This document shows positions 21,494 through 55,524 of a DNA stretch of 64,000 nucleotides, piece after piece. The notes beneath the pieces were generated by a model. The model saw nothing but the letters and a program-made list of their open reading frames with translations, did not search any database and had not been told where the DNA came from. The number at the start of each line of letters is the position of its first letter. Position 1 is the stretch's first letter. Both the position numbers and the translations under genes were made by a program. The DNA lies in assembly GCA_012514315.1 (NCBI GenBank), contig JAAZAN010000111.1, positions 1 to 64,000 on the forward strand. The letters run 5' to 3'. The stretch is from Chloroflexota bacterium. Its GTDB lineage: Bacteria; Chloroflexota; Anaerolineae; B4-G1.

Positions 21494-21497
21494 TAGC

Positions 21498-23666: not shown

Positions 23667-23682
23667 GAGGAGGGTCATACCC

Positions 23683-24762: not shown

Positions 24763-24773
24763 ACTAGGTCAAC

Positions 24774-27233: not shown

Positions 27234-28785
27234 ACGTCGCCTGACTCTGTGGTGCATGATCGGCATTCTGTTGCTGGGCGCGGCGCTGCGCTTCGTCGCG
27301 TTGGAGCATTCCCCGCCTGGCCTGGCGCCGGATGAGGCCAGTAATGGCTACGATGCCTACTCTATCGCGCTGACAGGGCGAGATCAGCACGGCAACCTAT
27401 TGCCGACCGTGATGGCGAGCCTCAATGACTATCGGATGCCTGCGTTCATCTACGCAGCGACGCCTTTCGTAGGCGTCCTGGGATTGTCGGTAACCAGCAT
27501 TCGCATGACGGCAGCGATGTTGGGCTGGCTCGGCCTGCCCCTGATCTATTGGCTCGGCGCCCATATGGTGAATCGACGGGCAGGCCTCATCGCGGCTCTT
27601 CTGCTGGCCCTTTCACCGTGGCACTTCCCTCTGAGCCGGATTGGGTTGGAGTTCAGTATGGTCTCGCTGTTGGTCACCGCCTCCGTCGCTGCTGTCTGGG
27701 CGTGGCATATGGGTGGCCATCAGGTCGGGTGGGCGTTGGGCGCTGCGGTGCTGTTTGGCTTGACGCTATACACTCATTCTGCCATGAAGCTGCTGGCGCC
27801 AGCTATGATGGCCGGGCTTGCCGTGCTGCTGTGGCCCGAGGTCAGGCGCCATCCCCGCCAAGTCGCCCTGCTAGCTGGTATCTGCGGTGTGATGGCGCTG
27901 CCTATTCTCATCGATACATGGCGTATTCCCGAGATGATGCAGGCTCGCTATGCACAGGTGGCAGTTTTCGCCCCAGACCGTCCGTTCGGCGACGCCACGC
28001 GCGAAGCGTTGGCCAACTGGGCCGCTCAGATTTCCCCGTCGTTTCTTTTCCTGCTGGGCGACACGGATGCGCTTCGCCATCCACCCGGGATGGGGCAGTT
28101 GTACTGGATTCAGGCCCCGCTGTTGGCCCTGTCTCTGGTCTGTGGTGTATGTATGAGGCGCTATCGAAAGGCGCTCGGACTGCTTATTCTCTGGGTTGCG
28201 CTGGCGGGTGTACCGGTCGCACTGACGAGTCTGGACAGCCAGACGGGACATGCGACTCGCTCCGCCTCGGCCATTGTGCCGTGGCAGGTGTTGTCAGCGG
28301 CAGGCTTTGCCTGGGTCTGGGACCGATGGCGCAGATGGCACGCCGTTCTGATTGTCCTGTTCCTCTTGGGGTTGTTAGTGCAGGGAACGCCGTACATGAC
28401 CCATTACTTCACCGATTATCCCAGGGAGGTTGCTTTGCGTTTCGATGATGGGATGCGCCAGGTTGTGGAGACTATGGATGCGTTTGATGATGCTCACGAT
28501 GTCGTCGTCTTCACAGAGCAAGCGAGCTGGCCCTATCTGCATATTCTGTTCTTCACCCAGTATGATCCGGGTCTGCTGCAGACCGATCTGCCTGTGCGCG
28601 GCTCAGAACTGTTCGCGCCGGTGACACGAGTCGGCAAGTACGTTATCGGCGATGTCGAGAGGATGTATGGCGAGCTGAATCATGGGCTGTTTGTAATGCC
28701 GGAGTGGATGTTGCCTGGCGTCGAACCGTTGGCAGTGACCTATCGATCGAATGGAACATCGGCCTACAAAATAGTGGAAAAGTGA
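27223..28785 (+). CDS. GT39-like glycosyltransferase family protein
   Basis: LEHSPPGLAPDEASNGYDAYSIALTGRDQHGNLLP...; multi-TM; overlaps upstream ORF by 11 nt. Confidence 0.8.
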   Translation: MSHERRLTLWCMIGILLLGAALRFVALEHSPPGLAPDEASNGYDAYSIALTGRDQHGNLLPTVMASLNDYRMPAFIYAATPFVGVLGLSVTSIRMTAAMLGWLGLPLIYWLGAHMVNRRAGLIAALLLALSPWHFPLSRIGLEFSMVSLLVTASVAAVWAWHMGGHQVGWALGAAVLFGLTLYTHSAMKLLAPAMMAGLAVLLWPEVRRHPRQVALLAGICGVMALPILIDTWRIPEMMQARYAQVAVFAPDRPFGDATREALANWAAQISPSFLFLLGDTDALRHPPGMGQLYWIQAPLLALSLVCGVCMRRYRKALGLLILWVALAGVPVALTSLDSQTGHATRSASAIVPWQVLSAAGFAWVWDRWRRWHAVLIVLFLLGLLVQGTPYMTHYFTDYPREVALRFDDGMRQVVETMDAFDDAHDVVVFTEQASWPYLHILFFTQYDPGLLQTDLPVRGSELFAPVTRVGKYVIGDVERMYGELNHGLFVMPEWMLPGVEPLAVTYRSNGTSAYKIVEK

Positions 28786-28798: not shown

Positions 28799-30196
28799 AT
28801 GAAGATGTTTTTGTTGCGTCGCACTCCGATCAGGTTATCTCTCGCAGTCGCGTTGTTGGTGGGTGTATTGGGACTGATGCATGTAGCGGCGGCGGCTTCG
28901 TCCGATCAGCAGAGCAAGTCTGACTGCGCTGCCCTGCTGTCAGATGATGCTGTGTGGGCGGCTACCGACGAGGTGCTCGTTCCGGCCGGACCGTTCTCTA
29001 TGGGGTGTTCTGGGGATCTATCGAGCGTGAAATGCGACCAGGACGCACGCCCTATTCACACCGTGTACGTCAGTGCGTTCTACATCGATCGTACAGAGGT
29101 CACGAATAGCCAGTATGCTGCCTGCGTCGCTGCAGGTGCGTGTCGCGCGCCTCTCTCGCGAAGGTCCGCGACCCGGTCAGATTACTACACCAACCCCCTC
29201 TATCGGGATCATCCTGTCCTGCATGTCGACTGGGCTCGGGCGAATGAGTACTGTGTGTGGAGAGGAAAGCGACTGCCCACCGAGGCCGAGTGGGAGAAAG
29301 CTGCACGTGGGACAGACCTTCGATTGTTTGCGTGGGGAGATAGTTTTCCGACCTGTGAGCGGGCGAATCTGGCGCTGTATACCAGTACGGGGGAAGTGGT
29401 GCACTGTCAGCCGGACACGGTCGCGGTGGGTAGTTACTCATCTGGCGCCAGCCCCTACGGTGCATTGGACATGATGGGCAACGTTCGGGAATGGGTCAAC
29501 GATCTCTACGAGAGCCGCTACTACTACGATTCTCCCTACTTCAACCCTGTTGGCCCGGCTACGACGGACAAGATGGAGAGTCTGGTGCGTGGAGGGTCCT
29601 GGAAGGATCACATTGACGGGGGAAACAATACATGGGTTCGGATTGACGAGGCGGGGATCTACGATGGAGAGGCCATCGGGTTTCGATGCGCCAGACCGAC
29701 AATGGATCCGCCTCGTGCCCCTACGCCGACACCGACGCCCTATGCCTCTGTAGTAATCGGGCAGGATGGCGGCGCCTTCTGGTTAGCTGATTCAGAGCAC
29801 CTGACACTGCTCAGTGTGCCGTCTGGGACTTTGCCCGTGGATACGGTGTTCACACTCTCTCATAGCGCTCAATCCAACATCCAGGGTGAGCTGCAGGGTC
29901 TCGATCACTTCGTATACCTGGATACCCACCCGCCTCTGCCGGTATCTGGGATTGCCTCAATGGACGCTGCCGGGCCGCAAGTCGAGCTTACGCTGGGATA
30001 CTCTCGATTGAGGGGGGTGATTCCGGAGACTATCAGTCTGTACCATCTTGAGTCAACCGGTTGGCTCACGAGCGGCATCACTGTGGTCAAACAGCATAGC
30101 CATCATCTTGTGGCCTGGGTCGAGCGAACCGGGGTGTATGGTGTGCTGGGCAGAACAAACCGACGTTATTTGCCTGTCCTCGTGCGGGGTGACTAG
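28799..30196 (+). CDS. Formylglycine-generating-enzyme-like (SUMF1) secreted protein
   Basis: VPAGPFSMGCSGD...YIDRTEVTNSQYAACVAAGACR...WARANEYCVWRGKRLPTEAEWEKAARG...MMGNVREWVNDLY...GGSWKD...GFRCAR; Pro/Thr linker and C-terminal RRYLPVLVRGD. Confidence 0.92.
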   Translation: MKMFLLRRTPIRLSLAVALLVGVLGLMHVAAAASSDQQSKSDCAALLSDDAVWAATDEVLVPAGPFSMGCSGDLSSVKCDQDARPIHTVYVSAFYIDRTEVTNSQYAACVAAGACRAPLSRRSATRSDYYTNPLYRDHPVLHVDWARANEYCVWRGKRLPTEAEWEKAARGTDLRLFAWGDSFPTCERANLALYTSTGEVVHCQPDTVAVGSYSSGASPYGALDMMGNVREWVNDLYESRYYYDSPYFNPVGPATTDKMESLVRGGSWKDHIDGGNNTWVRIDEAGIYDGEAIGFRCARPTMDPPRAPTPTPTPYASVVIGQDGGAFWLADSEHLTLLSVPSGTLPVDTVFTLSHSAQSNIQGELQGLDHFVYLDTHPPLPVSGIASMDAAGPQVELTLGYSRLRGVIPETISLYHLESTGWLTSGITVVKQHSHHLVAWVERTGVYGVLGRTNRRYLPVLVRGD

Positions 30197-30224: not shown

Positions 30225-30253
30225 TTGACCGGATGATGTGACCATGGTATGAT
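30225..30253 (+). promoter_or_regulatory. Sigma70-like promoter for the DUF4956-CotH-VTC operon
   Basis: TTGACC-N17-TATGAT in the 126-nt gap between SUMF1 and DUF4956. Confidence 0.55.
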
Positions 30254-30322
30254 GACCTCCCGCGAGTTCACTGCGGACTAGAACGAGTCGACAAGTTGGA
30301 TCGATAGGTAGGTAAGGTCAAT

Positions 30323-30988
30323 ATGACGGTTCAAGCACCGTTTTCACTTGGCGCGCTCGCGCTGAACATGGCCATAGGGCTGATCCTGTCCCTCGTCGTG
30401 GCCTGGTACTACGAGTACTACGGTCAGTCGTTATCCAATCGCCGCAAGTTTGCACAGTTGTTGCCTGTCCTCACGTTGACGACAACCCTGGTGATCTCTA
30501 TCATCAAGTCGTCTCTGGCGCTGTCGTTGGGGCTGGTCGGTGCACTCTCCATCGTTCGGTTTCGCACGGCGATCAAAGAGCCGGAGGAGCTCATGTTCCT
30601 GTTCGTCGCAATTGCCATCGGCCTTGGGGTTGGCGCCGATCAGCGTTGGGCAGCGGCCATAGGTGTGCTTGTTGTGTTGGGCTACATGGCACTGCGAATG
30701 GTGTTTGAGCGTAAGCGCGACACCCACAACCTGTACCTGAATGTGATGGTCGAGGAAAATGAGGGACAGGATTCACTCTTCAGTCGAGTGAACGCCCGCC
30801 TGCTGGAACACCTGGACGCAGTCGATTTTCGTCGCCTCGATAGCTGCAATGGCACGCTGCAGCTTACATACTTTGTCCAGTGTCGCTCACCCCAAGCGCT
30901 GAATGACTTGATTGATGACCTGAAGCGAACCTTCCCAGTCACTGAGGTGAGCTTCATGCAGCAGGAACAGGTGTTGGGGGGTAGTTGA
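30323..30988 (+). CDS. DUF4956-family membrane protein
   Basis: Small multi-TM protein with ALSLGLVGALSIVRFRTAIKEPEELMFLFVAIAIGLGVGADQ; next to VTC/CotH genes. Confidence 0.85.
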   Translation: MTVQAPFSLGALALNMAIGLILSLVVAWYYEYYGQSLSNRRKFAQLLPVLTLTTTLVISIIKSSLALSLGLVGALSIVRFRTAIKEPEELMFLFVAIAIGLGVGADQRWAAAIGVLVVLGYMALRMVFERKRDTHNLYLNVMVEENEGQDSLFSRVNARLLEHLDAVDFRRLDSCNGTLQLTYFVQCRSPQALNDLIDDLKRTFPVTEVSFMQQEQVLGGS

Positions 30989-32667
30989 GAGTTACGTCAG
31001 GGGGTGATCGTGCCACACCCTCAGTGTCTGCCCAGCGCCCAACCGCGAGACCCAGCGCCGCCTTTCAGGCTGGGCTGCTGATTCTGGCTTTCTTGCTGGG
31101 ATTTGTAGTCTGTCAGGGCGATTGGCATCGCCCGCTGACCGCCTGGGTCGCCTCCTTCGTTCAGCGTCCTGCGTTCACCGTCACCGCGTTGCTTCATCGT
31201 TCGGAATTACCCTCGCTGGGGATTGACCTGTCCTTCCGGAACTACCAGAGCCTGCTGGAGGTGCGTTCCCACGCAGTGGCCCAGGGGTCTCATTCCGTGC
31301 AGGATCTGGACTACGTTCCGGCGACTGTTCGATTGGTTGGAGATGCATCGTCGGTCCTGATGCGTTTCCCGGCGGGATCAGTGGAGAGGTTGGCTGGCGA
31401 CAGATGGCCGTTTGAGGTACTGGTCGAAGACGGAGATCTGTTCGGCATGCGTCACCTGCGCCTGACGCCCGCTGACGAATTCGTTTTGATGACTTGGGGA
31501 TACCTTGAGACATTGCGGCAGAGCGGGCTTCTGTCTGTGCGCTACGAACCCGTTCGAGTAGTCCTGAATGGCACGCCCAAGGGGCTCTATGTGGTGGAGG
31601 AAGTGCCCACTATCGACTCGCTGGAGATGTGGGGGCGAGCCACAGACGTCATTGTGAGCTATGATCAGAGTGCGTACTGGGAGGCGAGAACCCGTCTTCG
31701 GGATGCACTGCCCGGCGGCGGGTTTCAGTATGCCCGGATTACCACGCTGTGCCCATCGACGCCGGCTGGGACGGATGAGGAGCTCACTGGCGCCGATCAT
31801 CAGTCAATGGCCATCTGTGACAGGGCGAGCGCCGACCTGCAGGCGCTACAAACGGGCGATCGCGCTCCGTCGGAGCTCCTGGATGCTGAGAAGGTGGGCG
31901 AGTTCCTGGCGCTGACCACGCTCTGGCGGGGGACGGCACAACTGGACTGGCGAGCTGTGCACTGGGTGTACGATCCGGTTGCGGCGCGCTTTGAGCTGAT
32001 TGGCACGGCCAGTATGTTCACACCCATAGCGCCTCTCCCCAGTACCTACACGGATGATCCCCTGATTCAGGTCGCCTACGTGCGCGCGCTCGAGAGGTTC
32101 AGCAACCCGGATTTCCTTGCAGAACTGCGAACGAGCTTACAAGCCGATCTTGAGGCGATGCAGCTCGCTCTAGGGACCGATCTGGGGTACTTTGAGCTAC
32201 CCTGGGCGGTGTTGGAGTCGAATCAGGATGTGATGCGACGTCAGATCACTCCCTCACAGCCGCTGTTTGCCTCCATCGGGGCAGATCAGGCCACGCTGAC
32301 GCTCAATCTGGTAAACACACAGCCGTTTCCCATCGAGATCCTCGATCTCGACATCGGTGAGAGCTTTCTGCTTCCGGTCTCCAGGTCGTGGGTAGATCCC
32401 GCGTCTCAGGATGGCCTGGTCAATGCTGGAGTCGCTGACGCTTCTGACAGTGTGGTTCTGCATGCCGCCAGAGCTGAGGGGCCGTATGTTGTTCTCCTGA
32501 GAGTACCATCGGAGTCCCTGCCTACCGATATTGGATGGGCCCAGCAGACTCCTGGGGCAATCCAGGTTATCACTCGAGTTGTCGGACGCCCGGCGCAACG
32601 GATTGCGGTGACTGTCTATCCAGATGATCCCACAGTGTTTCCCTCATCAGGAGAAACCCTGCCGTGA
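30985..32667 (+). CDS. CotH-like protein with apparently lost active-site residues
   Basis: Aligns by eye with the CotH paralog 33377-35989 (GYLETLRQSGLLSVRYEPVRVVLNGTPKGLYVVEEV; DPLIQVAYVRALERFSNPDFLAELRTSL) but HN and DTD motifs are replaced. Confidence 0.7.
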   Translation: MRVTSGGDRATPSVSAQRPTARPSAAFQAGLLILAFLLGFVVCQGDWHRPLTAWVASFVQRPAFTVTALLHRSELPSLGIDLSFRNYQSLLEVRSHAVAQGSHSVQDLDYVPATVRLVGDASSVLMRFPAGSVERLAGDRWPFEVLVEDGDLFGMRHLRLTPADEFVLMTWGYLETLRQSGLLSVRYEPVRVVLNGTPKGLYVVEEVPTIDSLEMWGRATDVIVSYDQSAYWEARTRLRDALPGGGFQYARITTLCPSTPAGTDEELTGADHQSMAICDRASADLQALQTGDRAPSELLDAEKVGEFLALTTLWRGTAQLDWRAVHWVYDPVAARFELIGTASMFTPIAPLPSTYTDDPLIQVAYVRALERFSNPDFLAELRTSLQADLEAMQLALGTDLGYFELPWAVLESNQDVMRRQITPSQPLFASIGADQATLTLNLVNTQPFPIEILDLDIGESFLLPVSRSWVDPASQDGLVNAGVADASDSVVLHAARAEGPYVVLLRVPSESLPTDIGWAQQTPGAIQVITRVVGRPAQRIAVTVYPDDPTVFPSSGETLP

Positions 32668-33380
32668 TGACGCATGCCGAGGCGCCCCGTTACGAGGTGA
32701 AAATGCCATGCCCGCTGCATTATCTGCACGGGGTATCTGCCTGGGTTCGGCTGGACTCCGCACATTGGTATGCACCTTACCCACAGCGTCAGATCAACAA
32801 CATCTACTTTGATACGCCAGACTGCCAGAACCTCAATGAGAACTTAGCGGGTTCGTCGGATCGGAGCAAGTTGCGACTGCGGTGGTATGGTTCCTCCCTG
32901 AATACTATCTCCAGGGCGCGGCTTGAGCTCAAGTACCGAGAGGGTGCAGTGATCTGGAAAGCAATCTGGCCGCTTGATGTTACCGCTGACCTATCTGGCC
33001 TGTCGTGGTCTGCAGTCTGTCGACTGCTTCGCGAGGCTGCGGATGTCGATGCCAGGTTGCTCCTGAACCAACCCGTGTTTCCTGCCTTGATCAACAGCTA
33101 TCGGCGTAGGTACTATGTTACACGAGATCGCACAGTCCGGCTGACCATTGATACCGATATCAAGGCATACTATCAGCGATCTACGAACCGTCCGAACCTG
33201 CGACGGCCGGTGTATGTGGCGGACCACGCTGTCGTTGAACTCAAGGCTGCGACAGACAATCTATCCTATGAGCGACTTGCCGAGGTCATCGGGCGGTTTC
33301 CGCTGCGCCCCGATCGTCACTCCAAGTACGCTCAGGGCATGCTCGCAGCGCCAGATTTTGAGGGAGTCGAGTTACTATGA
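32664..33380 (+). CDS. VTC-domain (polyphosphate polymerase domain, TTM fold) protein
   Basis: RYEVKMPCP, INNIYFDTPD, SKLRLRWYG, RLELKYREGAVIWKAIWPL, SYRRRYYVTRDRTVRLTIDTDIKAY, VVELKAA, SKYAQGML. Confidence 0.88.
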   Translation: MMTHAEAPRYEVKMPCPLHYLHGVSAWVRLDSAHWYAPYPQRQINNIYFDTPDCQNLNENLAGSSDRSKLRLRWYGSSLNTISRARLELKYREGAVIWKAIWPLDVTADLSGLSWSAVCRLLREAADVDARLLLNQPVFPALINSYRRRYYVTRDRTVRLTIDTDIKAYYQRSTNRPNLRRPVYVADHAVVELKAATDNLSYERLAEVIGRFPLRPDRHSKYAQGMLAAPDFEGVELL

Positions 33381-35989
33381 GAGCGCCTCGCGTATCACTG
33401 CCCATCGTAGTGATCATGCTGGTATTCGCTTTTGGCGCCGGTGTTCTTTTCACACGTCTTCCAGGTGATGGCACTCTGTCCTTGCAGTCTCAGACTCTCT
33501 CTCCTCAGCCGCCTACTCCTCTACCCCCCACACCTATCCCGCTTGATACACCTACGCCGATATCAGAGGGGGCTGGGAGCATCTTGGATACTCTCTACGT
33601 CGAGATTCCGCCGCGAGGGCTGGCCAAGATCGAGGCGAAGCGCGAGGAAGCTTTGCAGCTTGGAATTCTGCTGGCCAGTGGAGGCGACTACGTTCCGGCC
33701 ACCATCCGGGCGGGAAATGACGAAATCGCGGTCGAGCTTCGCCTCAAGGGCGACTGGGCCGATCACTTTGCTCACGACAAGTGGTCGTTTCGCGTGCGTA
33801 CTACAGGCGATCAGTATCTGTATGGTATGAGTGTGTTCTCCCTTCAGGATCCCTCCACACGAAGCTTCCTGAATGAATGGCTGTTTCTGGAGAATGCCCG
33901 TCGAGAGGGGGTGCTCACAGTCGGGTATCGTTTCGTTCATATTGTGCTTAACGGTGAGTACAAGGGGATCTACGCGGTGGAAGAGGGTTTCCGCAAGGAG
34001 TTGGTGGAATCACAGGATCGTCGGGAGGGCCCTATCATCCGCTATGATGAAGACCTGGTGTGGGAGTATCGCGCCTTCTACGATGACCAACTTGTCCCCT
34101 ACGGGGTCAACGCATTCCACATCATCGATGCATTCCAGTCAGGGCGGATCGCTGCAGATTCAGTTCTGTCTGCCCAGCGCGATGCTGCCGTCGGCCTCCT
34201 GCGTGCGCAATGGACCGGCGAACGATCGGCCGCTGACGTTTTCGATCTGGAGACGATGGGGCGCTTCCTTGCGCTCACAGACCTATGGTGCGCGCCACAC
34301 GGTTTGATCTGGCACAATCTGCGCTACTACTACAATCCAATCACAGCCCGCCTGGAACCGATCGCCTTCGATACCGATGCACTGGTCGGCGATCTGGAGA
34401 TGATGGGGCTGCCACTGAGCGCCTTTTACCATGACCCGATTCTGCAAGCCGCCTACGTGCAGGAGTTGTGGCGTATGAGTCAGCCGGGTTACGTGGAGGC
34501 GCTAGAAGCCGAGCTGGGGCCTCAGTTTGAGGCATTGCGGGCTGCGCTGGAACCCGAGTTCAGGGCGGACGTGCTTGCGCCTCCCTGGGATGCGTTGAGG
34601 CGCAGGCAGGAGCTGGCACGACAGGTGCTGACTCCGTACCAGATGGTGTATGCCTATGTACAGGGGAGTCAAGCTGGACCAACGGGCACTGTTCAGATCG
34701 ATGTCGGCAACCTGCTGGACCTTCCCGTTGAGATCGTCGGCATGTTTGCGGATGGCGAGGTGATTCCAGGCCAGAAGGGCTGGGTGGACCGGGACTCCTA
34801 TGATCTCATTGCCTCGCCATCGCAGCGCCAGGAAGAGGCGCTCGTTCTGCGGCCCCTGGATCATGAGGCAACCTTCATGCCCTACGTCCACCTGCGTATT
34901 CCGCTGCCGGATGGTGTGGAGGTCTCGAGCGACACAGAGTTTGAGATCGTTACCCGGCTGTGGGGTCTCACGCAGACGTTGACACAGACTGTGATGCCGG
35001 GTTATGCACAACCTTTGGCAGAGGGTCCGCAACCCGCCGCTCCTAGCGTCGAGCAGGCTCTGGAGCAGTACCCTTACCTTCAGCGAGTCGAGGGCGAGGA
35101 GATGTTCGCGATCCCCAGCGGCACGTGGGATGTAGAGGGCAACCTGGTGTTGCCTGAGGGTTTCGGTCTGCGATTGGGGCCTGGAACGACGCTGCGCTTC
35201 GAGCGGGAGAGCTTATTGCTGGCCAGTGGTCCACTTGACTTCCGAGGCGATGAGGACGCGCCGATTGTGTTTGAACCGGTCGATGATGAGTGGTGGGGTA
35301 TCGTTGTGTTGAATGCGGCAGCGCCCTCGACGTGGCGGTATGTCACCGTCGACCGCTCATCTCCGGTGGCGCGGGATGGCTGGACACTGACCGGCGGTAT
35401 CACATTCTATCAGAGTGCGATCCGCCTGGATCACTGTCGCATTATCAACGCGCTGGGTGAGGATGGAATCAATGTTGTGCGGGCTCAATTCCAGTTCGTC
35501 AACAGCGAGTTCGGACCAACTGTCTCCGATGCGTTCGATGGGGATTTCGCGTGGGGGACGGTTGAGCGGTGTGTGTTCCACAATGTGGACGCCGACGGTA
35601 TCGACGTCAGTGGGTCGCAGGTAGAGGTCAGCGATGTCCGGTTCATCAACATCGGTGACAAGGGACTCTCAGTGGGCGAGGGCAGCCAGTTGACCGCTCG
35701 GAACATCTACGTTGAGAATGCCGATTTCGGGGCCGCGAGTAAGGACCGGTCTCACCTCACACTGTCGAATGCCACGATCGTGGGCGCACGAGTGGCTGGT
35801 CTGGCTGCCTACATCAAGAAACCCAGCTATGGCCCGGCGTCGATCACGGCTGAGGCGGTCGCCTTCGTGGATGTCCCGGCTGACCGTGCTCTGCTCGTTG
35901 AGGTCGGGAGTTGGATCGACCTGGATGGTGTGAGGACCTATGGCGTCGACGTGGATGTCGAAGCGCTCTACGAGAAGTGGACGGAGTAG
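33377..35989 (+). CDS. CotH kinase family protein fused to a right-handed beta-helix
   Basis: LRLKGDWADHF...KWSFRVRT...VLNGEYKGIYAVEE...WHNLRYYYNPITARLEPIAFDTDAL; C-terminal repeats AIRLDHCRIINALGEDGINVV...VERCVFHNVDADGIDVSGS. Confidence 0.88.
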   Translation: MRAPRVSLPIVVIMLVFAFGAGVLFTRLPGDGTLSLQSQTLSPQPPTPLPPTPIPLDTPTPISEGAGSILDTLYVEIPPRGLAKIEAKREEALQLGILLASGGDYVPATIRAGNDEIAVELRLKGDWADHFAHDKWSFRVRTTGDQYLYGMSVFSLQDPSTRSFLNEWLFLENARREGVLTVGYRFVHIVLNGEYKGIYAVEEGFRKELVESQDRREGPIIRYDEDLVWEYRAFYDDQLVPYGVNAFHIIDAFQSGRIAADSVLSAQRDAAVGLLRAQWTGERSAADVFDLETMGRFLALTDLWCAPHGLIWHNLRYYYNPITARLEPIAFDTDALVGDLEMMGLPLSAFYHDPILQAAYVQELWRMSQPGYVEALEAELGPQFEALRAALEPEFRADVLAPPWDALRRRQELARQVLTPYQMVYAYVQGSQAGPTGTVQIDVGNLLDLPVEIVGMFADGEVIPGQKGWVDRDSYDLIASPSQRQEEALVLRPLDHEATFMPYVHLRIPLPDGVEVSSDTEFEIVTRLWGLTQTLTQTVMPGYAQPLAEGPQPAAPSVEQALEQYPYLQRVEGEEMFAIPSGTWDVEGNLVLPEGFGLRLGPGTTLRFERESLLLASGPLDFRGDEDAPIVFEPVDDEWWGIVVLNAAAPSTWRYVTVDRSSPVARDGWTLTGGITFYQSAIRLDHCRIINALGEDGINVVRAQFQFVNSEFGPTVSDAFDGDFAWGTVERCVFHNVDADGIDVSGSQVEVSDVRFINIGDKGLSVGEGSQLTARNIYVENADFGAASKDRSHLTLSNATIVGARVAGLAAYIKKPSYGPASITAEAVAFVDVPADRALLVEVGSWIDLDGVRTYGVDVDVEALYEKWTE

Positions 35990-35992
35990 GAA

Positions 35993-38014
35993 TTGGACAT
36001 GTCCGGACGTCCACTGCGGGCTAGGCCTGGACGTGCTCGGCGGGTATTCCTCGGGCTCTGTCTAGCGATCCCACCCGTGATCGCTGCACTGTGGGGCGGT
36101 GCCCTCACTGATTCCGCCTATGCGGGGTTCCGAAGGGCGGAGAACATCGCTGCGGGTCAAGGATGGGCGGTCCAGGGATTGGCGTGGCCCCTCGTGGTCG
36201 CCAGCCTCCTGCACCTGCCACTGCATTCGGCCGCCGTGTTGCTGAGCACGACTGGGTGGATCATTGCGGTTCTTGGCTGGTTCCTGATAGGGCTCAAGCT
36301 TGAACATCCCACCTTCTCTGTCGGGGCTGCCGTCCTGTTGGCGCTGCATCCATTGCAGGGCCGTGCGCTGGGGCTCGAGCCCGGCCTGGTGATGGGGCTG
36401 CTCGCGATGGCGACATATCTTGTGGTACAGGATCGTCTTGTCGGCGCGCTCATCATTGTACCGGTGCTCGTGGTCATTGGACCGCTGGCGCTCTCGTTCC
36501 TGGTCCCTTTACTCGTGTTCAGTTGGATCCGAAGAGGGTCTGGACTCAGATTGGAGCATGTCACTGTCTGTGCCGCCATCAGTGTGGCATGCTACGTCGT
36601 AGCAGCGATGGTTTCTGGCAGATGGGACGATCCAAGTCTGACGACCTCTTTCCTGGCTGTGATTCAGGTTCTCGTAGCGGCTGGCATCTCGATCTCTACC
36701 CGCAGGTTGTCCCGGTGGCCCCTTTCGAATGGGGTTGCCGCTCTGTGTCTCGCCGCCCTGGTGCTGGGACAGACGAGTGTCCTGGTGCAGGGCTGGCGAT
36801 TGCGGCCTGTCGATAGATCGATGCTGTACGAGACGCTGGCTCAATGGTTGAAGGAAGAGGCGTTGCCAGATGAGACCGTCGGTGTGCGTGATCCGGCGCA
36901 CCTGGGATATCTCTCTGGATACAGCACAATTCGCCTGCCTGACACCGGTCACACATCTGTGTTGCTTGCCACTATCGAGCGGATGCGCCCTGACTACTGT
37001 GTGGCGCTGGGCAGTCTGGCCTGGCAAGGTGCTGTGCGTCAGCCATGGTTCCAGGAACGATACGAGCAGGTTCATCAGTTCGTGAACTCCAGTGATTCAG
37101 CGACGTCACTCACGGTATATCGCTATGTGCAATCACGGTTCGATGAAGGGGACTTCGCCGAAGTATCAACGGCCTTTGTTTCCGACGCTCGTGAAGTCGT
37201 TGAGCTGACTGGCTACCGCCTGGACAGCCAACGTATCACACCAGGTGAGCCTCTCTACCTCACGCTCTACTGGCGAGCTGCTAGGCATTTGGACCAACCA
37301 CTATATCTCACCCTGCGCCTGGTCGATCCAGTAGCGGGAGAGAGCTGGCTGGAGATTGAGAACCGTGCACCAGGTGGACTGGCGACCGATCTGTGGAACG
37401 TCGCGACACAGATTGATGACCGCTATACGATCGTGCCTCCTGCGGGCCTACCTCGGGGGGATTACATACTGGACGTCGCGCTTTACCGGTCCAATGGTGC
37501 GTCACTGACAGTATCAGGCGGTGGCGCATCTGAGGAAAATAGGTTGGTTATTGCCCGGGTCACTTATCCTCCCAGCGTGAGTAGTCAACCGGTCAAGCCT
37601 GATCATGCTTCTGGTGCGACCTTCGGCGATGAGATCGAGCTAGTCGGATATGATATCAGAGAACGTGTCCGGCCGGGCGAGACGCTGCGCGTGGCGTTGT
37701 ATTGGCATGTCCTGAAGCCGGTCCCCCAAGACTACAAGGTCTTTGTCCATCTGATGGGCCCTCAAGGGGAGGCGGTAGTGCAGGATGATGGTGTGCCGGT
37801 GAACTGGACCTACCCGACGACGCGCTGGCAGCCGGGTGACACAATCCGAGATGAACACATTCTGACGCTGCCTCAGTCGGCTCCTCGTGGTGACTACCAG
37901 CTCAATATCGGTCTATACGATCAAGCGGACGGTGAGCGTCCCGTCGTTGTTGATGATGCTGGCAATGAGCTTGCGGACCGACTAGTAACGCTGATGTGCA
38001 TTCAGGTGCGATGA
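35993..38014 (+). CDS. GT-C-like multi-TM membrane protein with C-terminal beta-modules
   Basis: LTDSAYAGFRRAENIAAGQGWAVQG resembles GT-C first-loop D-A-Y-x-x-F-R-x-A-x-N; C-terminal QDYKVFVHLMGPQGEAVVQDDGVP module; alternative ATG at 35999. Confidence 0.7.
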   Translation: MDMSGRPLRARPGRARRVFLGLCLAIPPVIAALWGGALTDSAYAGFRRAENIAAGQGWAVQGLAWPLVVASLLHLPLHSAAVLLSTTGWIIAVLGWFLIGLKLEHPTFSVGAAVLLALHPLQGRALGLEPGLVMGLLAMATYLVVQDRLVGALIIVPVLVVIGPLALSFLVPLLVFSWIRRGSGLRLEHVTVCAAISVACYVVAAMVSGRWDDPSLTTSFLAVIQVLVAAGISISTRRLSRWPLSNGVAALCLAALVLGQTSVLVQGWRLRPVDRSMLYETLAQWLKEEALPDETVGVRDPAHLGYLSGYSTIRLPDTGHTSVLLATIERMRPDYCVALGSLAWQGAVRQPWFQERYEQVHQFVNSSDSATSLTVYRYVQSRFDEGDFAEVSTAFVSDAREVVELTGYRLDSQRITPGEPLYLTLYWRAARHLDQPLYLTLRLVDPVAGESWLEIENRAPGGLATDLWNVATQIDDRYTIVPPAGLPRGDYILDVALYRSNGASLTVSGGGASEENRLVIARVTYPPSVSSQPVKPDHASGATFGDEIELVGYDIRERVRPGETLRVALYWHVLKPVPQDYKVFVHLMGPQGEAVVQDDGVPVNWTYPTTRWQPGDTIRDEHILTLPQSAPRGDYQLNIGLYDQADGERPVVVDDAGNELADRLVTLMCIQVR

Positions 38015-40542
38015 AACAGACTGTCTCTATCCGTGCGATGGCCTATCTGGCATTTCTGATCGCGATGCTCGGCATAGCGCTCTGGTCGGCCAGCTCCTTC
38101 GAGCGTGGCGTGCTCGTTCTCCCAGCGGGGGGTCCTGGGGAAGAGCTGACATTCTATCCTGTGACTGGCGCGTACGACCGGAGTCTTCGGGTCAGCATCC
38201 ATCCCTCAGTCAGGCAGGCGCCAGTGGTCTTCACCACAGGAGGCAGTGTTCCGACCCTTACGGTGGGTACACTCTATGAACGTCCCATACTCATCGATAG
38301 CAGGGCGCCGGGTGTGACAGTGGTGCGTGCGCGGGAGTTCATCAACGGTGTTGCTGGTCCAGTGACGAATGCGTCATACGTTATCGGGGTCGAGAGCGCT
38401 CTGCCAGTCATCTCTGTCATTGCAGACCCAGTCGATCTCTGGGACGCCGACAAGGGCATCTTGACCAATACGTGGCAGCGTGGGCCGGAGTGGGAGCCTA
38501 CGGTTCACATTACCTACATTGATGAAGGCGACGGATTCAACGTCCCCGGCGGGTTGCGCATTGACGGACTAGAGCGTTTCGATGCGCCCAAGCAGTCATT
38601 CCGACTCTACTTCCGTGCGGAGCACGGGCACTCTCGACTGGAATATCCGCTCTTCTTCGGACATCCGCATCAAGAAGCACAATCGTACAAGCGGGTCCTC
38701 TTACAGGCGGGTGGACATACAGGGCGATGGACACTGATAGGTCACCAGTTGATCTCCGATGTGGCGACCGATCTGGGGTGTCACACAACGCAAGGGCGCC
38801 CTGTTCTGCTGTTTCTGAATGGTGAGCGGCAAGGCATCTATCGTCTGAGCGAGCGTGTCGATCGGTTCTTTCTGACAGATAACCTGGGCATCGAGTCCGC
38901 CGACGTGATTCGACATGACGATGTGAAGGAGGGGGATGATCGGCACTGGGAAGCGCTACTGGAATGGGTCTCAACGCACCCTCTTGATGATGCGGATAAC
39001 TGGACATATGTTCAGTCACTGCTAGATGTGGAGGATTTCACGACCTTCGCGGTCCTGCAGATGTACTTTGGCTTCCCGGTGAACGATTTCACCGTCGCAC
39101 GACCTCGCATAGTAGGAGGACGTTGGTTCTGGATATATGGAGACAACGACCTGGACCCGACGCTGAACGTCGACCTGGAGTCACCCCTGTTGAGCCCGTG
39201 TGGCCGATCCGATGATCTTGCCCTTCTTCTCTGCAATATGTTGGACAACTCGGACTATCGGGCCTACTTCGCGGCGCGTGCTGCAGATCTGCTCAACGTG
39301 CAGCTAGAGTCCAGTACGATGGAGGAGCGTGTCGCCCGTCTGGCGGCCGATCTGCGGCCTGAGATCGAGCACGAGGTAGGTCGCTGGCCGGTGTATACTG
39401 ACTGGGAGCTCAATGTGGCGGTCCTGCGTGATTATGTCGAAGGGCGCCCCGACCGGCTTCGGCAGCAGATCGCAGATTCACTCGGGCTGCATGGTACGGT
39501 GCAGCTGACTGCAACGTTCCCGGCTGAGGGCGGAATGATCTACATCAACGGCGCCAAGGCGGCGGCCTCACCCTGGCACGGGGAGTACTTCGCAGGCAGC
39601 GAACTCCAGCTTATCGCAGTACCGACACGGGGTTATGTGTTCGATGGATGGCGGCATGGCGACACTGTCGAGCCAACGACATTGATGACAGTCACACTGG
39701 ATAGTCCCCGCTCTCTGACTGCGCAGTTCGCCCCTGCGGTTGGTGATGACCTTGTCGCGCGTCCTAATGATGTGATTATCAATGAGTACTGGATCAACGA
39801 TGATGGTACTCGATACGCCACGCTGAACCAGCGTCCGATTGAGGGTGATTGGGTGGAGCTGTTGGTCAACCGAGACAGGGTTGATCTGCGAGGCTGGCGG
39901 ATTACCGACAATGATACGAAGGTTGGCACGGATGAAGGCTCGATCATTCTGTCGTCGCTGGATGTTCTGAAGGCTGTGCCAGGAGGAACGATCATTCTCA
40001 TCATCACTACCGAGAGCGATTCGAACAGTACCTACTTCCCGCAAGATGATCTGGACATTACCGATAGGCGACTGATATTCTACGTTGGCAATGGGAACCT
40101 TGATGTGACAACCGATCCGGGGTTCAACATCGGAACGGGCGACGATAGTCTGGCCCTTCTCGCGCCGGGTCTCGGCGAGGGGTTCGCTGATGATATTGGC
40201 ATCGACTTCGTTGCCGAGGGGACGCGTGTTACCCCATATTCGTTCGGGATTCTGGCGGATGGTGTGGTATTTGAGAATCCATTCCAGCACTTGGGATCTG
40301 ACGACGGTGCGATCTTCATCGGAAACGTCAACAATGACGATGGCGCCGAAAATTGGATCGTCGATCCGCCGGCGACGCAGACGGGCGACGCGACGGGTCT
40401 AGGCGCCGCCAATATCCTGACACCAGGCGCGCTGAATCACATGCAGGGCGGATCATTGCTTCATTCCGAATTTCTGTGGCTCTCCGTGGGAGCGGCAATC
40501 GTGGGGACCGCCTTTCTACATCTTCGTCTGCGGCGAAGTTGA
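38011..40542 (+). CDS. CotH kinase family protein with chitobiase-C-like, InlB-B-like and lamin-tail-like modules
   Basis: CotH core LPVISVIADPVDLWD...PKQSFRLYFRAEHG...LFLNGERQGIYRLSERVDRFFL...FWIYGDNDLDPTLN; QLIAVPTRGYVFDGWRHGDT; DVIINEYWIND...DWVELLVNRDRVDLRGWRITDN; C-terminal TM. ATGA overlap supports start 38011. Confidence 0.85.
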   Translation: MKQTVSIRAMAYLAFLIAMLGIALWSASSFERGVLVLPAGGPGEELTFYPVTGAYDRSLRVSIHPSVRQAPVVFTTGGSVPTLTVGTLYERPILIDSRAPGVTVVRAREFINGVAGPVTNASYVIGVESALPVISVIADPVDLWDADKGILTNTWQRGPEWEPTVHITYIDEGDGFNVPGGLRIDGLERFDAPKQSFRLYFRAEHGHSRLEYPLFFGHPHQEAQSYKRVLLQAGGHTGRWTLIGHQLISDVATDLGCHTTQGRPVLLFLNGERQGIYRLSERVDRFFLTDNLGIESADVIRHDDVKEGDDRHWEALLEWVSTHPLDDADNWTYVQSLLDVEDFTTFAVLQMYFGFPVNDFTVARPRIVGGRWFWIYGDNDLDPTLNVDLESPLLSPCGRSDDLALLLCNMLDNSDYRAYFAARAADLLNVQLESSTMEERVARLAADLRPEIEHEVGRWPVYTDWELNVAVLRDYVEGRPDRLRQQIADSLGLHGTVQLTATFPAEGGMIYINGAKAAASPWHGEYFAGSELQLIAVPTRGYVFDGWRHGDTVEPTTLMTVTLDSPRSLTAQFAPAVGDDLVARPNDVIINEYWINDDGTRYATLNQRPIEGDWVELLVNRDRVDLRGWRITDNDTKVGTDEGSIILSSLDVLKAVPGGTIILIITTESDSNSTYFPQDDLDITDRRLIFYVGNGNLDVTTDPGFNIGTGDDSLALLAPGLGEGFADDIGIDFVAEGTRVTPYSFGILADGVVFENPFQHLGSDDGAIFIGNVNNDDGAENWIVDPPATQTGDATGLGAANILTPGALNHMQGGSLLHSEFLWLSVGAAIVGTAFLHLRLRRS

Positions 40543-40604: not shown

Positions 40605-42998
40605 CTAGTCTCGGATATTGATGGGCCCCAGCACTACCTCGGTTCTCCCATCCTCTGCCTGTAGACGTGTTGCGGCATGCTCTAAGGGGCTATCGAGCCA
40701 GTACGCCCCAGTGACTAGGTGGTAGGCGCCAGGTACAGCTTCATCGGGGACCGTCATCGTATGGCGCTGCACGAACACGTCCCCTGCCTGCCACTGATCG
40801 ATGGACAGCCCAAGTCCATCGCCAACCGCGACAGGGCTGAAGTCCGCGGTGGTCAGATGCAGCATGAGCGACAAAGGCCGTTGTGGTGTAGCCAGAACGC
40901 GCCAGTAAGTCAGGACCTCGATCGGATCACCCGTTCGGGCTGTCTCGGGAGTCTCGAAACCGATGAACTCCAGCGTCTCCTCCAGGCTGGTGGTGGAGAC
41001 TGAAGGGATGATAGCTGTTGTTCCCCCCCACTCCCAGATAGCGAAGGGAGGGGATTCGGAGGCCGTGGGCTGCACGTAACTCAGATGCAGGCTCGAAATC
41101 GGCAGTTGTCTCACCCAGTCGGGCCACCAATCCAGCCGCTCGCTGTTCACTGGCCATCGCAGCCGGTCATCCCCAGGCACTGCACGAACATACCATCCCG
41201 CTTCCGCGCCCCCTGCGGGGAAAAGCCAGCTTTGTTCGCAGTCGAAGCAGGTAAGCCGCAGTGATCGCGAGCCGAATCCCTCTGCCACAATGTCTGGCGA
41301 CAGTGGAGTGACAGGTTGGCTGCATTGAGCCACCCACTCACCGTGGGTTTCCGCCACATCGTAGAGGAGCATCACGCGCCCAATCCTGGCCTGTGGTGCG
41401 CGATGCCGAAACCAGTCATATGTGGAGGGCAGGGCGAGTGGCACCCCATCGAGTGTTGTGGCGCTGATGGCATACATTCCGGGCGCCGGATTGAAGCGGC
41501 TTGGTAACACAGGGGGAGCATCGCGCATAGGTGCGATAGGCTCGTAGTTCACATCGTAAGCGGCCGGGTCGAGGAACGTGAACATCGAGAGCTTCACGGA
41601 GTCGACGTTGTTCTCTCGTTGATACCTGGCCAGCGCTTTGAGAGTTTGCCCCCAGTCCGTATTGGAGTCGGCCAGGAATCGGTATCCTTGGTCAGCGCCA
41701 CCCGCGATGACGTTGAAGTAGGCCAGATAGTCGGGCGCGATGAGCAGCGTGCCCACAATGTAGTAGATTGCGAATGTGCAGCATACAGCGTACCATGTGT
41801 ACAGGGTACGGCGTGGGTTTCCAAGGTCACGGAGAGCAGCCAATCGGGAGATGAAGACGAACAGAAAGGGAAGGATTGGTAGTAGATGGCGGTAGCCAAT
41901 GGTGATCGTGCTCGATAGGCTGAGCGCCCCGTAGATCAGTGGGAACAGGATAAGTGGCAACTCCCGACACGCCGAGCGTCGCCGTAATGCGAATGCGACA
42001 ACTGACGCTGAGCCGAGGACTAGAGTCGGGAGGGGTGTCTTGAGGATGAAGGCAATCGGGAAGTACTGCCATCGGCCGTGCATCCCATTCTGGCCCAAGA
42101 GGAAGTACTCCCGACCGTAGTCCATGTTTTCCAACAGACGCAGCCACCGCTCGATGTGACTTGCTGCCGGGAGGGGCAATGAGCCTCCGGCCACTTCAGG
42201 CAACGCCCTGAATTCGAACAGATACATCGCCCAGAGAACGAATGATGCCACAGTGACTATGCCCGCGTACGACCACATAGCTGAGAGAAGGGTTCGCGCC
42301 CGGCCCTGACGTACGCTGAACAGCGTTGTGACCACGAGGAGAAGAGCGAATGCCGGCAGCAGCAGCGCTGCAGTCAGCTTGGTCCCCAGCGCCAGGCCCA
42401 TCAGAATCGCCGTTGTCCACCAGCGGCCCGGACTGCGTTTTTCGAGGTAGCGAGCGAACGCCCAGCTTGCTGCGAAGATAAATGCTGTGGCGCCCATATC
42501 GGTGGTGGCGAGGCTGCCGTGTGCCAGTATGTTGGGGTCGAACGCGAAGAGGACGAGTGCGAGAATCCCTGATGCCCCGCCGAATGACTGACTAGCCCAA
42601 CGGTAGACGATCGACGCGAGCATCAACGTCATCAGTATTGCGGCGATGCGGCATGCGACGATCACCCGGTCGATAGGGCGATAGGCCAAGACTGTCTCCT
42701 GAGCTACGCGGACTAAGTCGCCATGAACCCAGCCGGGTGACTGCTCTGGGGGAACAAGATCCGGTACGAGAAGAAGAGGCCATGAATGCAGCGCCTTGGC
42801 CAGTGGAACGTGCTCGTCCAGCAAGCGCATTCTGCCGGTGCGGAGGTATTCGTGGCCACTGGTGATGTGAAAGCCCTCGTCGATCGTCGCGGAAAGCTGG
42901 GTCGCGGCGCCAAGCAGTTGGGCGAACAGTACCATGATCAATCCTAATGCAGCCATTTGCTGCCAGGACCGGGTATGCCTTGAGAACCACTGCCTCAT
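40605..42998 (-). CDS. GT39-like (PMT-clan) glycosyltransferase, paralog C
   Basis: TIDEGFHITSGHEYLRTGRMRLLDEHVPL, FDPNILAHGSLATTDMG, TIGYRHLLPILPFLFV, DSNTDWGQ; ATGA overlap with 42995-45367. Confidence 0.86.
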   Translation of the reverse strand: MRQWFSRHTRSWQQMAALGLIMVLFAQLLGAATQLSATIDEGFHITSGHEYLRTGRMRLLDEHVPLAKALHSWPLLLVPDLVPPEQSPGWVHGDLVRVAQETVLAYRPIDRVIVACRIAAILMTLMLASIVYRWASQSFGGASGILALVLFAFDPNILAHGSLATTDMGATAFIFAASWAFARYLEKRSPGRWWTTAILMGLALGTKLTAALLLPAFALLLVVTTLFSVRQGRARTLLSAMWSYAGIVTVASFVLWAMYLFEFRALPEVAGGSLPLPAASHIERWLRLLENMDYGREYFLLGQNGMHGRWQYFPIAFILKTPLPTLVLGSASVVAFALRRRSACRELPLILFPLIYGALSLSSTITIGYRHLLPILPFLFVFISRLAALRDLGNPRRTLYTWYAVCCTFAIYYIVGTLLIAPDYLAYFNVIAGGADQGYRFLADSNTDWGQTLKALARYQRENNVDSVKLSMFTFLDPAAYDVNYEPIAPMRDAPPVLPSRFNPAPGMYAISATTLDGVPLALPSTYDWFRHRAPQARIGRVMLLYDVAETHGEWVAQCSQPVTPLSPDIVAEGFGSRSLRLTCFDCEQSWLFPAGGAEAGWYVRAVPGDDRLRWPVNSERLDWWPDWVRQLPISSLHLSYVQPTASESPPFAIWEWGGTTAIIPSVSTTSLEETLEFIGFETPETARTGDPIEVLTYWRVLATPQRPLSLMLHLTTADFSPVAVGDGLGLSIDQWQAGDVFVQRHTMTVPDEAVPGAYHLVTGAYWLDSPLEHAATRLQAEDGRTEVVLGPINIRD

Positions 42999-45367
42999 GA
43001 GGACGAGACCTCGACTCTTCCGATCAGCATCCGGTCGCCAACGACCTCGTCAAGTGCCATAATGATGGGGAGGCGCTGCACGTCCGGTAGCGTGTAGGCG
43101 CCGATCTGTAGCCAGTAGACGCCCGGTAAGGCCTCAGGGGGAATCGAGAGCTCGTGGCGCTGCGCGATGATATCACCGGACTGCAGTTGGTCGATGGAGA
43201 CTCCCAGGCCATCACCTACCGCGATAGGGACTCCATCGTGACCCACTAGATGCGCCATCAGTGAGAAGGGCTGGACCGGAGGGCGCACGACGCGCCAGTA
43301 GGTTACCAGGACCATCGAGCTATCACTCGACACGGAATCCTCCGCCCCATGGGCGCCGAGAAACTCGAGGGCGTCGCCGACGGATACTGGCCCCTCGAGG
43401 GTGACACCTTCCTGCTCGGCACGCTGTGGGACCCAGTCGGCCGGCACGGCGGTGACCGAAGCCGGCGATAGCCCTACCAAGGGATTCTGCTCGAACCATT
43501 CATGGACCGCAAAGGGCGGAACGCTACTGGGCCGAGTCTGCTCGTAAGCTGTCCGTGCGTGCTGTAAGCGATCGGCCGTCCAGGCATTGTCCTGGAGAGG
43601 AACCACGTACCAGCCGTTTCCTTCCGGGTAGAGCCAGCTCTGAGTGCAGTCGAAATAGGCCACGCGGAGTTCGTCCTGCCCCAATCCTTCCGCCAGCAAC
43701 GCAGGAGTTAGCGGGGCCACAGGCACGGTACATTCTGCTGCCCACTGCGCCGGTGGACGCGGCTGAATCTTGTAGACGAACATCGCGTGTCCGATTCGCT
43801 CCATGGGTTCGATCTTGCGGAAGTAGTCGAACATCTCCGAGTCGGCCACCACCACGCCCTGCAACTGCGTCGTGCTGATCGCGTATATCCCCGGTGGGGG
43901 ATTGAAGCGTTGTGCCAAGACCGCCGGTGCATCCGGCCAGGGGGGCAGAGGCGTGTAGTTCAGCCCATACGCGTGGGGATCGTTGATGGTGTACTGGCTC
44001 AAGCCAAACTCGGCGATATTCTGCTCGTCCAGGTACCGCCGCAATGCTTTCCATGTCTGTCCCCAATCAAGATTGGAGTCCACCAGATAGCGATATCCTC
44101 CAGCCGGGCCTCCTGCAAGCAAGTTGAAGTAGGCCAGATGCCAGGGGGACAGCGTCAAGGTAACCACGGCATAACCGCTCAACAGTGCGTAGGGTATGAT
44201 GCGGGAGGGGCCTGATGGGAGACTGGCAGACCAAGATGCAAGGCGCGATACCCACACGAAGAGGAAAGGGAGGATCGGTAGCAGGTGTCGATAGCCAATG
44301 TTGATCCCGCTGGTCAGGCTGACGCCGAAGTAGGACAGCGGCAGGATGAGGAGCGCTATCTCCGTACGCCATCCTGGCTGTGGTAGCCATCGGAGCAAGG
44401 CGCCCGACAGCGTGAGCAGCAGTGCGAGCAATGTCAGCGTTGGTGTCTTGAGCAGAAACGCGATGGGAAAGTAGTACCACACGCCGTGGATGTAATTCTG
44501 CCCCATAAGGAAGGCTGAATGTCCCCATCCCATGTGTTCGCGGAGTCTGATCAGAGGCAGCAGGTGGCTCGGCGCTGGCACGGTGAACGGAACGCCGGGT
44601 ACAGCGCCAGTCTCGAAGCGGTAGAGTGCCCACAGCACGAGAAAGGCCGTCATCCCACCGATCAACGCCTGAATCAGGTAACCTTTCAGAGGCTTTCCAG
44701 GTGGCCGTGCCAGGATTATGAGCGCCCCGAAAACAGGCAGGAGGATGAGCGAACTCGACTTGGTCGTCAGTGCGAGCCCCAGTACAGCGCCCGCCGTCAG
44801 GCAGCGCCGCCACGACGGTCCGTGGGGCTGGCTGACCCAGCGCCAGAAAGTGAACATTCCTGCGAAGAGTGCACAGGCAGCCCCCAGGTCGGTCGCTGCC
44901 ACACCTGAGTGAGCCAGGATGTTAGGGTCGAAGGCGCACAGTATCAGGGCTACCAGCCCGGCCTGTGGGCCAAAGGCGTCTGTGGACCAACGGTACACCA
45001 GGGCAGCCAGCAGGATGCCCATGAGCATCGTCGGCGCCCGGGCTGCGAAGACCAGGGGCTCGATAGGTCGATAAGCAACTACGACGTGCTGAGCTACGCG
45101 GATCAGGTTGGCCTCTTGCCATCCTGGCACAGTGCGCGGATCAGCCAGACGGGGACGGGCTAGCAACAGCGGCAGGGCCTGCATCATCTTGACGAGCGGG
45201 GGGTGTTCCTCGACCAAGCGGTAATCGCCAGTGGTCAGGCAGGCATAGCCGCTCGTTATGTGGAGCGGTTCGTCCAATGTGATGGATGTCTGGCGTGCAG
45301 CCAGAGCGACCTGCGCAAACAGAGCCAGCAAGAACCCGTATGTTATCAGTCGCCGATAGCTACTCAC
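42995..45367 (-). CDS. GT39-like (PMT-clan) glycosyltransferase, paralog D
   Basis: TLDEPLHITSGYACLTTGDYRLVEEHPPLVKMMQALPLLL, FDPNILAHSGVAATDLG, NIGYRHLLPILPFLFV, DSNLDWGQ; GTG start. Confidence 0.86.
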   Translation of the reverse strand: MSSYRRLITYGFLLALFAQVALAARQTSITLDEPLHITSGYACLTTGDYRLVEEHPPLVKMMQALPLLLARPRLADPRTVPGWQEANLIRVAQHVVVAYRPIEPLVFAARAPTMLMGILLAALVYRWSTDAFGPQAGLVALILCAFDPNILAHSGVAATDLGAACALFAGMFTFWRWVSQPHGPSWRRCLTAGAVLGLALTTKSSSLILLPVFGALIILARPPGKPLKGYLIQALIGGMTAFLVLWALYRFETGAVPGVPFTVPAPSHLLPLIRLREHMGWGHSAFLMGQNYIHGVWYYFPIAFLLKTPTLTLLALLLTLSGALLRWLPQPGWRTEIALLILPLSYFGVSLTSGINIGYRHLLPILPFLFVWVSRLASWSASLPSGPSRIIPYALLSGYAVVTLTLSPWHLAYFNLLAGGPAGGYRYLVDSNLDWGQTWKALRRYLDEQNIAEFGLSQYTINDPHAYGLNYTPLPPWPDAPAVLAQRFNPPPGIYAISTTQLQGVVVADSEMFDYFRKIEPMERIGHAMFVYKIQPRPPAQWAAECTVPVAPLTPALLAEGLGQDELRVAYFDCTQSWLYPEGNGWYVVPLQDNAWTADRLQHARTAYEQTRPSSVPPFAVHEWFEQNPLVGLSPASVTAVPADWVPQRAEQEGVTLEGPVSVGDALEFLGAHGAEDSVSSDSSMVLVTYWRVVRPPVQPFSLMAHLVGHDGVPIAVGDGLGVSIDQLQSGDIIAQRHELSIPPEALPGVYWLQIGAYTLPDVQRLPIIMALDEVVGDRMLIGRVEVSSS

Positions 45368-45400
45368 GGAGGGAGAACGCCCATCGCATCGTGTACCGGC

Positions 45401-45428
45401 AGTATAGCGAGCCGGTCACAGGTGTCAA
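45401..45428 (-). promoter_or_regulatory. Strong sigma70-like promoter for 45367(-)
   Basis: Minus strand TTGACA-N16-TATACT. Confidence 0.7.
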
Positions 45429-45448
45429 GCTCTAGTCGGATAGTCGCC

Positions 45449-45477
45449 TTGCAAAAAGGCTCTGTGCTCACTATAAT
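45449..45477 (+). promoter_or_regulatory. Sigma70-like promoter for 45602(+)
   Basis: TTGCAA-N17-TATAAT, divergent from the 45401-45428 promoter. Confidence 0.65.
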
Positions 45478-45601
45478 GCCTCTTTCATGGCCGGTCACTC
45501 GGACGAGCAGCGCTCATCTCGGAGCGTACGATCTGAGCTGTGTGCTTGTGGATGGTGATGGACGATCTGAAGACCGAATGTCGTGCTAATATTCTGGAGA
45601 G

Positions 45602-49353: not shown

Positions 49354-49368
49354 TGATGAGTTCTGAGA

Positions 49369-51852: not shown

Positions 51853-51864
51853 AGGCAACCTGAC

Positions 51865-51892: not shown

Positions 51893-51944
51893 GCAGTGCA
51901 TCGACACATGTTGGCATCGTCAGCGAATACCGGCTGGTAGATTC

Positions 51945-55517: not shown

Positions 55518-55524
55518 CCGAAAA

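Follow-up and report, generated by a model that had tools for sequence, protein, structure and literature searches.

What does an operon do that joins a polyphosphate polymerase-type (VTC) protein, a DUF4956 membrane protein and several relatives of the CotH kinases? Six such genes lie in a 64,000-nucleotide stretch of a Chloroflexota contig (JAAZAN010000111.1), hereafter the window. Our preferred reading, to which we assign a probability of roughly 0.45 from the sequences, is that the VTC and DUF4956 proteins would make and pass on polyphosphate, and that a repurposed CotH/beta-helix protein would handle it at a surface glycan.

A six-gene operon and its closest relative

The six genes are tightly coupled on the forward strand (30323-40542), downstream of a good promoter match (Table 1). 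The coordinates and junctions given for them in the initial annotation were reproduced: by their ORF coordinates, neighbouring genes overlap by 4 bases or, at one junction, are 3 bases apart. The promoter-like site that it had placed just upstream was also found, as the single match to this pattern in the window against 0.02 expected. The genome to which the window belongs (90% complete) has one VTC gene, one DUF4956 gene and two CotH genes detectable by Pfam, all of them in the operon.

Table 1. Features of the operon and its promoter region (window positions).
Feature	Position	Strand	Basis
Promoter-like site, sigma-70 type, TTGACC-N17-TATGAT, TG before the -10	30225..30253	+	Pattern count in window
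DUF4956: MgtC-like membrane protein, five TM-type helices and C-terminal ferredoxin/ACT-like domain	30323..30988	+	Pfam, AF2, Foldseek, alignments
P2: CotH-like, N-terminal anchor, without beta-helix, pseudokinase-like	30985..32667	+	P4 paralogy, residue table, G301 orthologue
VTC: triphosphate-tunnel polyphosphate polymerase-type	32664..33380	+	Pfam, profile against Vtc4, residues
P4: anchor helix, CotH fold, beta-sandwich-type region, right-handed beta-helix	33377..35989	+	Pfam, alignments, AF2
P5: membrane N-terminus (GT-C-like, uncertain) and extracytoplasmic-type C-terminus	35993..38014	+	Sequence comparisons
P6: CotH domain, InlB-type repeat, weak lamin-tail-like stretch, C-terminal TM	38011 (or 37996)..40542	+	Pfam, residue table

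A related MAG, G301 (the record of locus L067), has all six genes in unchanged order, spread over two contigs with the split inside the VTC gene, and the arrangement is therefore more than chance. Identity to the window proteins is 70% for DUF4956, 59% for P4, 47% for P6, 46% for VTC and 33% for P2. The P5 of G301 is 40% identical over the C-terminal part only (residues 279-673 of the window P5); it has a lipoprotein-like start and no membrane part.

Two domain assignments did not hold. P5 had been taken for a GT-C partner of the CotH proteins; no GT-C/PMT Pfam model matched it up to E=1, and since its G301 counterpart lacks the membrane part, we rejected the idea of a conserved glycosyltransferase here. 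Many other GT-C-like genes in the window are similar to P5. The lamin-tail domain proposed for P6 was likewise dropped, scoring below the cut-off (15.7 vs 34.3 bits); an InlB-type repeat (PF18998) has better support as an additional domain of this protein. About ten GT-C/PMT-like membrane proteins flank the operon on both strands (window 10889-28785 and 40605-58497), several with a C-terminal region in common with P5.

A module shared by many phyla and independent of Pel

That DUF4956, VTC and CotH genes tend to be neighbours had been stated beforehand as background, and our surveys found them together far beyond chance. Among 301 genomes of the same phylum, VTC was found in 28, DUF4956 in 23 and CotH in 16. 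CotH never occurred without both of the others, which all 16 CotH genomes carry. VTC and DUF4956 were found together in 22 genomes (Fisher p 6e-27 by genome, and 1e-17 by genus, a count that corrects for relatedness in part only). Of the 24 DUF4956 matches, 22 had VTC at a distance of at most 2 kb, and 15 had a Pfam CotH match at a distance of at most 5 kb. In 14 control genomes, VTC and DUF4956 were found in the same three.

Scanning 84,980 species genomes with a narrower alignment, the first query alignment being too divergent for searching, gave more than 580 relatives; the analysis covered the best 80. Among these best 80, VTC or CotH lay within 5 kb in 65 of the 70 loci with a called anchor; loci with full flanks had at least one of the two in 35/35 cases and both in 28/35, and the commonest order was DUF4956-CotH-VTC (20 loci). 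The CotH proteins were usually of 850-1000 aa, fused to a beta-helix and P4-like. By record titles, the carriers belong to Chloroflexota, Bacteroidota, Planctomycetota, Verrucomicrobiota, deltaproteobacteria, Nitrospina, Marinamargulisbacteria and Pelagibacteraceae; the cultured strain Dokdonia pacifica DSM 25597 (L092) also has the module. The conserved three-gene core across phyla is DUF4956, a CotH/beta-helix fusion and VTC. One Chloroflexota genome (G168) has two DUF4956-VTC loci (L046 and L047), only one of which includes CotH.

In the papers that we found, the trio has been noticed only as an accessory of Pel biofilm loci. Genes for CotH, polyphosphate-polymerase and DUF4956 (and DUF4832) proteins adjoin pelDEADAFG in streptococci, clostridia and bifidobacteria (PMC7112168). 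Mutation of the CotH-like and the DUF4956-like gene in the Pel-linked trio of Streptococcus intermedius altered Pel levels and reduced aggregation, and the same study reports that it did not find the synteny of the trio outside Pel loci (PMC12345266). The Gram-positive genes resemble ours in that a TM protein with an ACT-type domain, a polyphosphate-polymerase-type protein and a secreted CotH-like protein adjoin; they differ in that CotH is usually fused to a beta-helix in the module described here and is triplicated in the window, and in the absence of PelG. PelG was found in none of 79 genomes tested (29 survey genomes with VTC or DUF4956 and 50 cross-phylum carriers), many of them drafts, which makes single absences weak but not the total. 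It is also absent from the window's own genome (90% complete), and no pel-type family was found among the window ORFs scanned. We therefore rejected a Pel accessory cluster; the module is Pel-independent and spread over many phyla, and the window operon is a lineage-specific, expanded form of it. Beyond Pel loci, our literature searches, which mostly did not extend to subscription journals, turned up no account of the module other than that of a Clostridium perfringens locus whose VTC-domain, membrane and CotH genes are listed, the trio being left uninterpreted (PMC2879425).

Copies of the module in the SAR11 family Pelagibacteraceae (L132, L135 and L144) include two, L132 and L135, that lie among the surface-sugar genes NeuB and DegT; L135 is a five-gene set in the order phosphoesterase-DUF4956-CotH-VTC-pyrophosphatase. 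DUF4956 was found in 36 of 197 genomes of this family (about 18% of the sample), and we rejected the module on this count as the general cause of the SAR11 periplasmic phosphate buffer (PMC7250820).

Probable polyphosphate synthesis and its possible export

The VTC protein matched its Pfam model well above the cut-off (E 1e-23, 84.1 vs 23 bits) and, by profile, yeast Vtc4 (E 1e-21). We checked ten Vtc4 tunnel residues, the basic tunnel residues and the metal Glu among them. Equivalents of K200, R264, R266, K281, K294, R361, R373, E426, S457 and K458 are all present, as K13, R71, R73, K90, K99, R148, R159, E192, S220 and K221, and are invariant or nearly so in 79 sequences. With its polymerase active site kept, the protein is a probable polyphosphate-making enzyme, as had been proposed. 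Unlike in the yeast complex, Pfam reported no SPX or DUF202-type domain, and the membrane partner is DUF4956; polyphosphate translocation would be shared with yeast by analogy alone. Searches of mainly open-access literature returned no paper demonstrating activity of a bacterial VTC protein.

The DUF4956 assignment is firm (Pfam E 8e-17, 61.9 vs 30.6 bits), and the AF2 model (pLDDT 90) has five membrane-type helices followed by a C-terminal ferredoxin-like domain. In an alignment of sequences picked by family only, S76, R79 and R81 are invariant; K85 is invariant in a 48-member set, the search seed of which was part of the motif preceding it. We detected no homology between DUF4956 and the yeast VTC membrane domain, and the DUF4956 profile had no significant match among PDB sequences. 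DUF4956 may export polyphosphate, by analogy with yeast. The DUF4956 proteins of five loci in Chloroflexota-type MAGs (L093, L097, L100, L114 and L115) measure 448-527 aa and have an extended N-terminus with a signal-like start.

The C-terminal fold gave weak Foldseek matches to SbtB, CutA, the MgtC C-domain and ACT (E about 2e-3 to 6e-3), and with its membrane helices the protein resembles the MgtC family, the M. tuberculosis MgtC C-domain being among the matches; it differs in missing the Pfam MgtC cut-off (15.9 vs 31.4 bits). The domain is thus sensor-like, and regulation suits it equally well as conduction of polyphosphate. These fold matches and the weak MgtC match favour an account without any export, in which DUF4956 would be an MgtC-like regulator, its ACT/PII-like domain sensing nucleotide or phosphate status, VTC would make cytosolic polyphosphate, and the two would gate a separate surface glycan machinery. 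We consider this account unlikely, since the enzymes that accompany the module elsewhere are hard to explain without a phosphoanhydride outside the cytoplasm.

These enzymes are of two kinds. A family of secreted or anchored calcineurin-like phosphoesterases occurs at 19 loci; at 11 of these, the distance to a module gene on the same strand is at most 50 bp. Inorganic pyrophosphatases with signal peptides (recognised by eye and hydropathy) lie less than 80 bp from the module at five loci (L108, L124, L131, L135 and L144). Family I pyrophosphatases are normally cytosolic, and the signal-bearing copies are therefore the best genomic hint of a phosphoanhydride outside the cytoplasm. Both partners favour such chemistry and fit the extracytoplasmic phosphate polymer of the earlier proposal. 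Neither adjoins the window operon, and a weak search of its genome, with one divergent query, did not find the phosphoesterase.

CotH proteins with altered catalytic residues

Three CotH paralogs had been counted in the operon. Pfam supports two of them, P4 (CotH 1e-6, 28.5 vs 23.8 bits, and Beta_helix 2e-7) and P6 (CotH 1e-23); P2 had no Pfam match and joins the family as a paralogue of P4 (E 3e-50) that matches an iterated CotH profile. The N-terminal membrane anchors of the CotH-type proteins agree with the extracytoplasmic location suggested for them. In P4, an anchor helix (residues 9-26) is followed by the CotH fold (about 67-420), a beta-sandwich-type region (about 421-555) and a right-handed beta-helix (about 556-860). 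Its AF2 model (mean pLDDT 86, the helix mostly above 95) had CotH (5jda, E 3e-12) as a Foldseek match.

The CotH proteins here resemble the Bacillus CotH spore-coat kinase (5JD9/5JDA; PMC7821199) in fold, by profile (4e-21) as well as by structure, and in the conserved equivalent of Glu203. They differ in the added membrane anchor and beta-helix and at the equivalent of Asp228, a residue whose replacement in the D228Q mutant inactivates B. subtilis CotH (PMC7821199). In P4 this position is His308, and His stands there in 30 of 35 proteins of the beta-helix class, P4 included; to place D228 and D251 in the PDB sequence, we relied on their 23-residue spacing together with the alignments. An independent HMMER profile alignment to 5JD9 agrees with His at this position. 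The class was picked by a beta-helix motif and independently of CotH residues, which keeps the finding from being circular; His is likewise present in another dozen proteins that have the P4 architecture but lack the motif. P4 keeps the catalytic-loop Asn (N314) and the second Asp (D332, D251 in B. subtilis), as does the class, and its CotH fold has many conserved basic residues. The CotH proteins without a beta-helix in module loci mostly keep Asp/Asn/Asp.

In P2 the catalytic Asp, the Asn and the second Asp are all replaced by Ala, and by Pro, Ser and Ala in the G301 orthologue. P2 has the lowest identity of the operon's proteins, yet its gene is open and in place in G301, and it is thus retained; judged by its residues, P2 is a fast-evolving pseudo-CotH. 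Two CotH-VTC-CotH arrangements in proteobacterial MAGs (L071 7051-9440 and L075 9105-11987) have a second CotH without the catalytic Asp and Asn, possibly a recurrent pseudo-CotH like P2. P6 is less clear. Its CotH domain (about 197-486) keeps a GDNDLD motif that the G301 orthologue has lost; in the alignment its second Asp is kept, the Asn column holds Asp and the first column is a gap, and the orthologue has Gly for the second Asp.

These residues bear on the proposal that polyphosphate made by VTC is exported through DUF4956 and that it, or ATP, is used by the CotH proteins as active extracytoplasmic kinases of surface proteins or glycans. CotH is an established kinase family (PMC7821199), P6 of the window keeps a GDNDLD motif, and the triad persists in most CotH proteins of module loci outside the beta-helix class. 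Against it, P2 has lost all three residues, the P4 clade has His at an Asp whose Gln mutant is dead, and the second Asp is gone from the P6 orthologue. We regard this proposal as quite improbable; the initial view of the CotH proteins as plain kinases fed by polyphosphate is not borne out by P2 or the P4 clade and is doubtful for P6. A kinase reading, for P6 or through His-based chemistry in P4, keeps some probability, though less than was first assumed. With these residues, a vague notion of kinases becomes a set of testable claims about H308, the beta-helix ladder described below and the exported pyrophosphatase partner, the last predicting a phosphoanhydride outside the cytoplasm.

The beta-helix of P4

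Among 33 aligned proteins, D696, N699, D718, D721, D723, D743 and K762 are invariant and D740, D761, S765, G767, E768, K789, D790, S792 and K815 nearly so; the first five sit inside the motif by which the sequences were picked and are invariant partly by construction, and the later residues lie outside it. In a wider set (A4) that adds seven proteins picked without the motif, D696, N699, D718, D721, D723, D740, D743, D761, K762, S765, G767, E768, K789 and S792 are all conserved at 90% or more. Apart from G767, these residues make up an Asp/Lys/Ser ladder, and they would lie in successive coils because their spacing is about 22 residues. After CotH, the P4 model matched the beta-helices of GH87, alginate lyase, AlgG and polygalacturonase, weakly (best E 1e-6, TM below 0.4) and at the level of the fold. 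The modelled helix thus resembles polysaccharide-active enzymes; its ladder could also bind a metal or ligand without catalysis.

These matches, and the densest run of conserved acidic residues in P4 falling within the helix, raise the possibility that P4 is primarily a hydrolase, lyase or epimerase of a surface polysaccharide that CotH and VTC merely tune. A Cthe_2159 carbohydrate-binding protein beside DUF4956/VTC in five Chloroflexota loci that lack CotH points the same way. We give this possibility low odds: the fold matches are weak, and the pairing of VTC with DUF4956 is tighter than that of either with the helix protein.

A proposed pathway to a surface glycan

In the preferred reading of polyphosphate handled at a surface glycan, VTC would polymerise phosphate from NTP at the membrane, and DUF4956 would regulate VTC or let the chain pass outward along its own conserved R-x-R/K residues. 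P4 would handle the polymer outside the cell: its CotH fold, with His for the catalytic Asp and with the metal Asn/Asp and the basic residues kept, may bind or transfer phosphate, and its beta-helix, of a polysaccharide-enzyme-type fold, may act on or hold the glycan. P2 would perhaps serve as a scaffold, and in other genomes the exported pyrophosphatase and the phosphoesterase could finish or reverse the process. Since the kinase residues of the CotH proteins are mostly lost or changed, building or trimming of a surface polymer is more likely than plain protein phosphorylation. The most likely product is a phosphate-modified or polyphosphate-associated surface polysaccharide.

More speculatively, and with little confidence, we extend this to a general bacterial system in which cytoplasmic polyphosphate would cross the inner membrane through DUF4956 and be installed on, or exchanged with, a surface glycan by the His-CotH and a beta-helix enzyme domain, with editing by the exported pyrophosphatase and phosphoesterase. 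If true, bacteria would have a VTC-like pathway of polyphosphate export, and the CotH fold a new chemistry.

A protein resembling the formylglycine-generating enzyme (FGE-sulfatase) is encoded directly upstream of the operon (window 28799-30196), and genes like it are found close to the module in L068 and L084. The operon's own contig (C53) also encodes, at a distance of about 27 kb downstream, a pyrophosphatase-like protein with no clear signal peptide (L066 7025-7564), which is probably a housekeeping enzyme and a coincidental neighbour.
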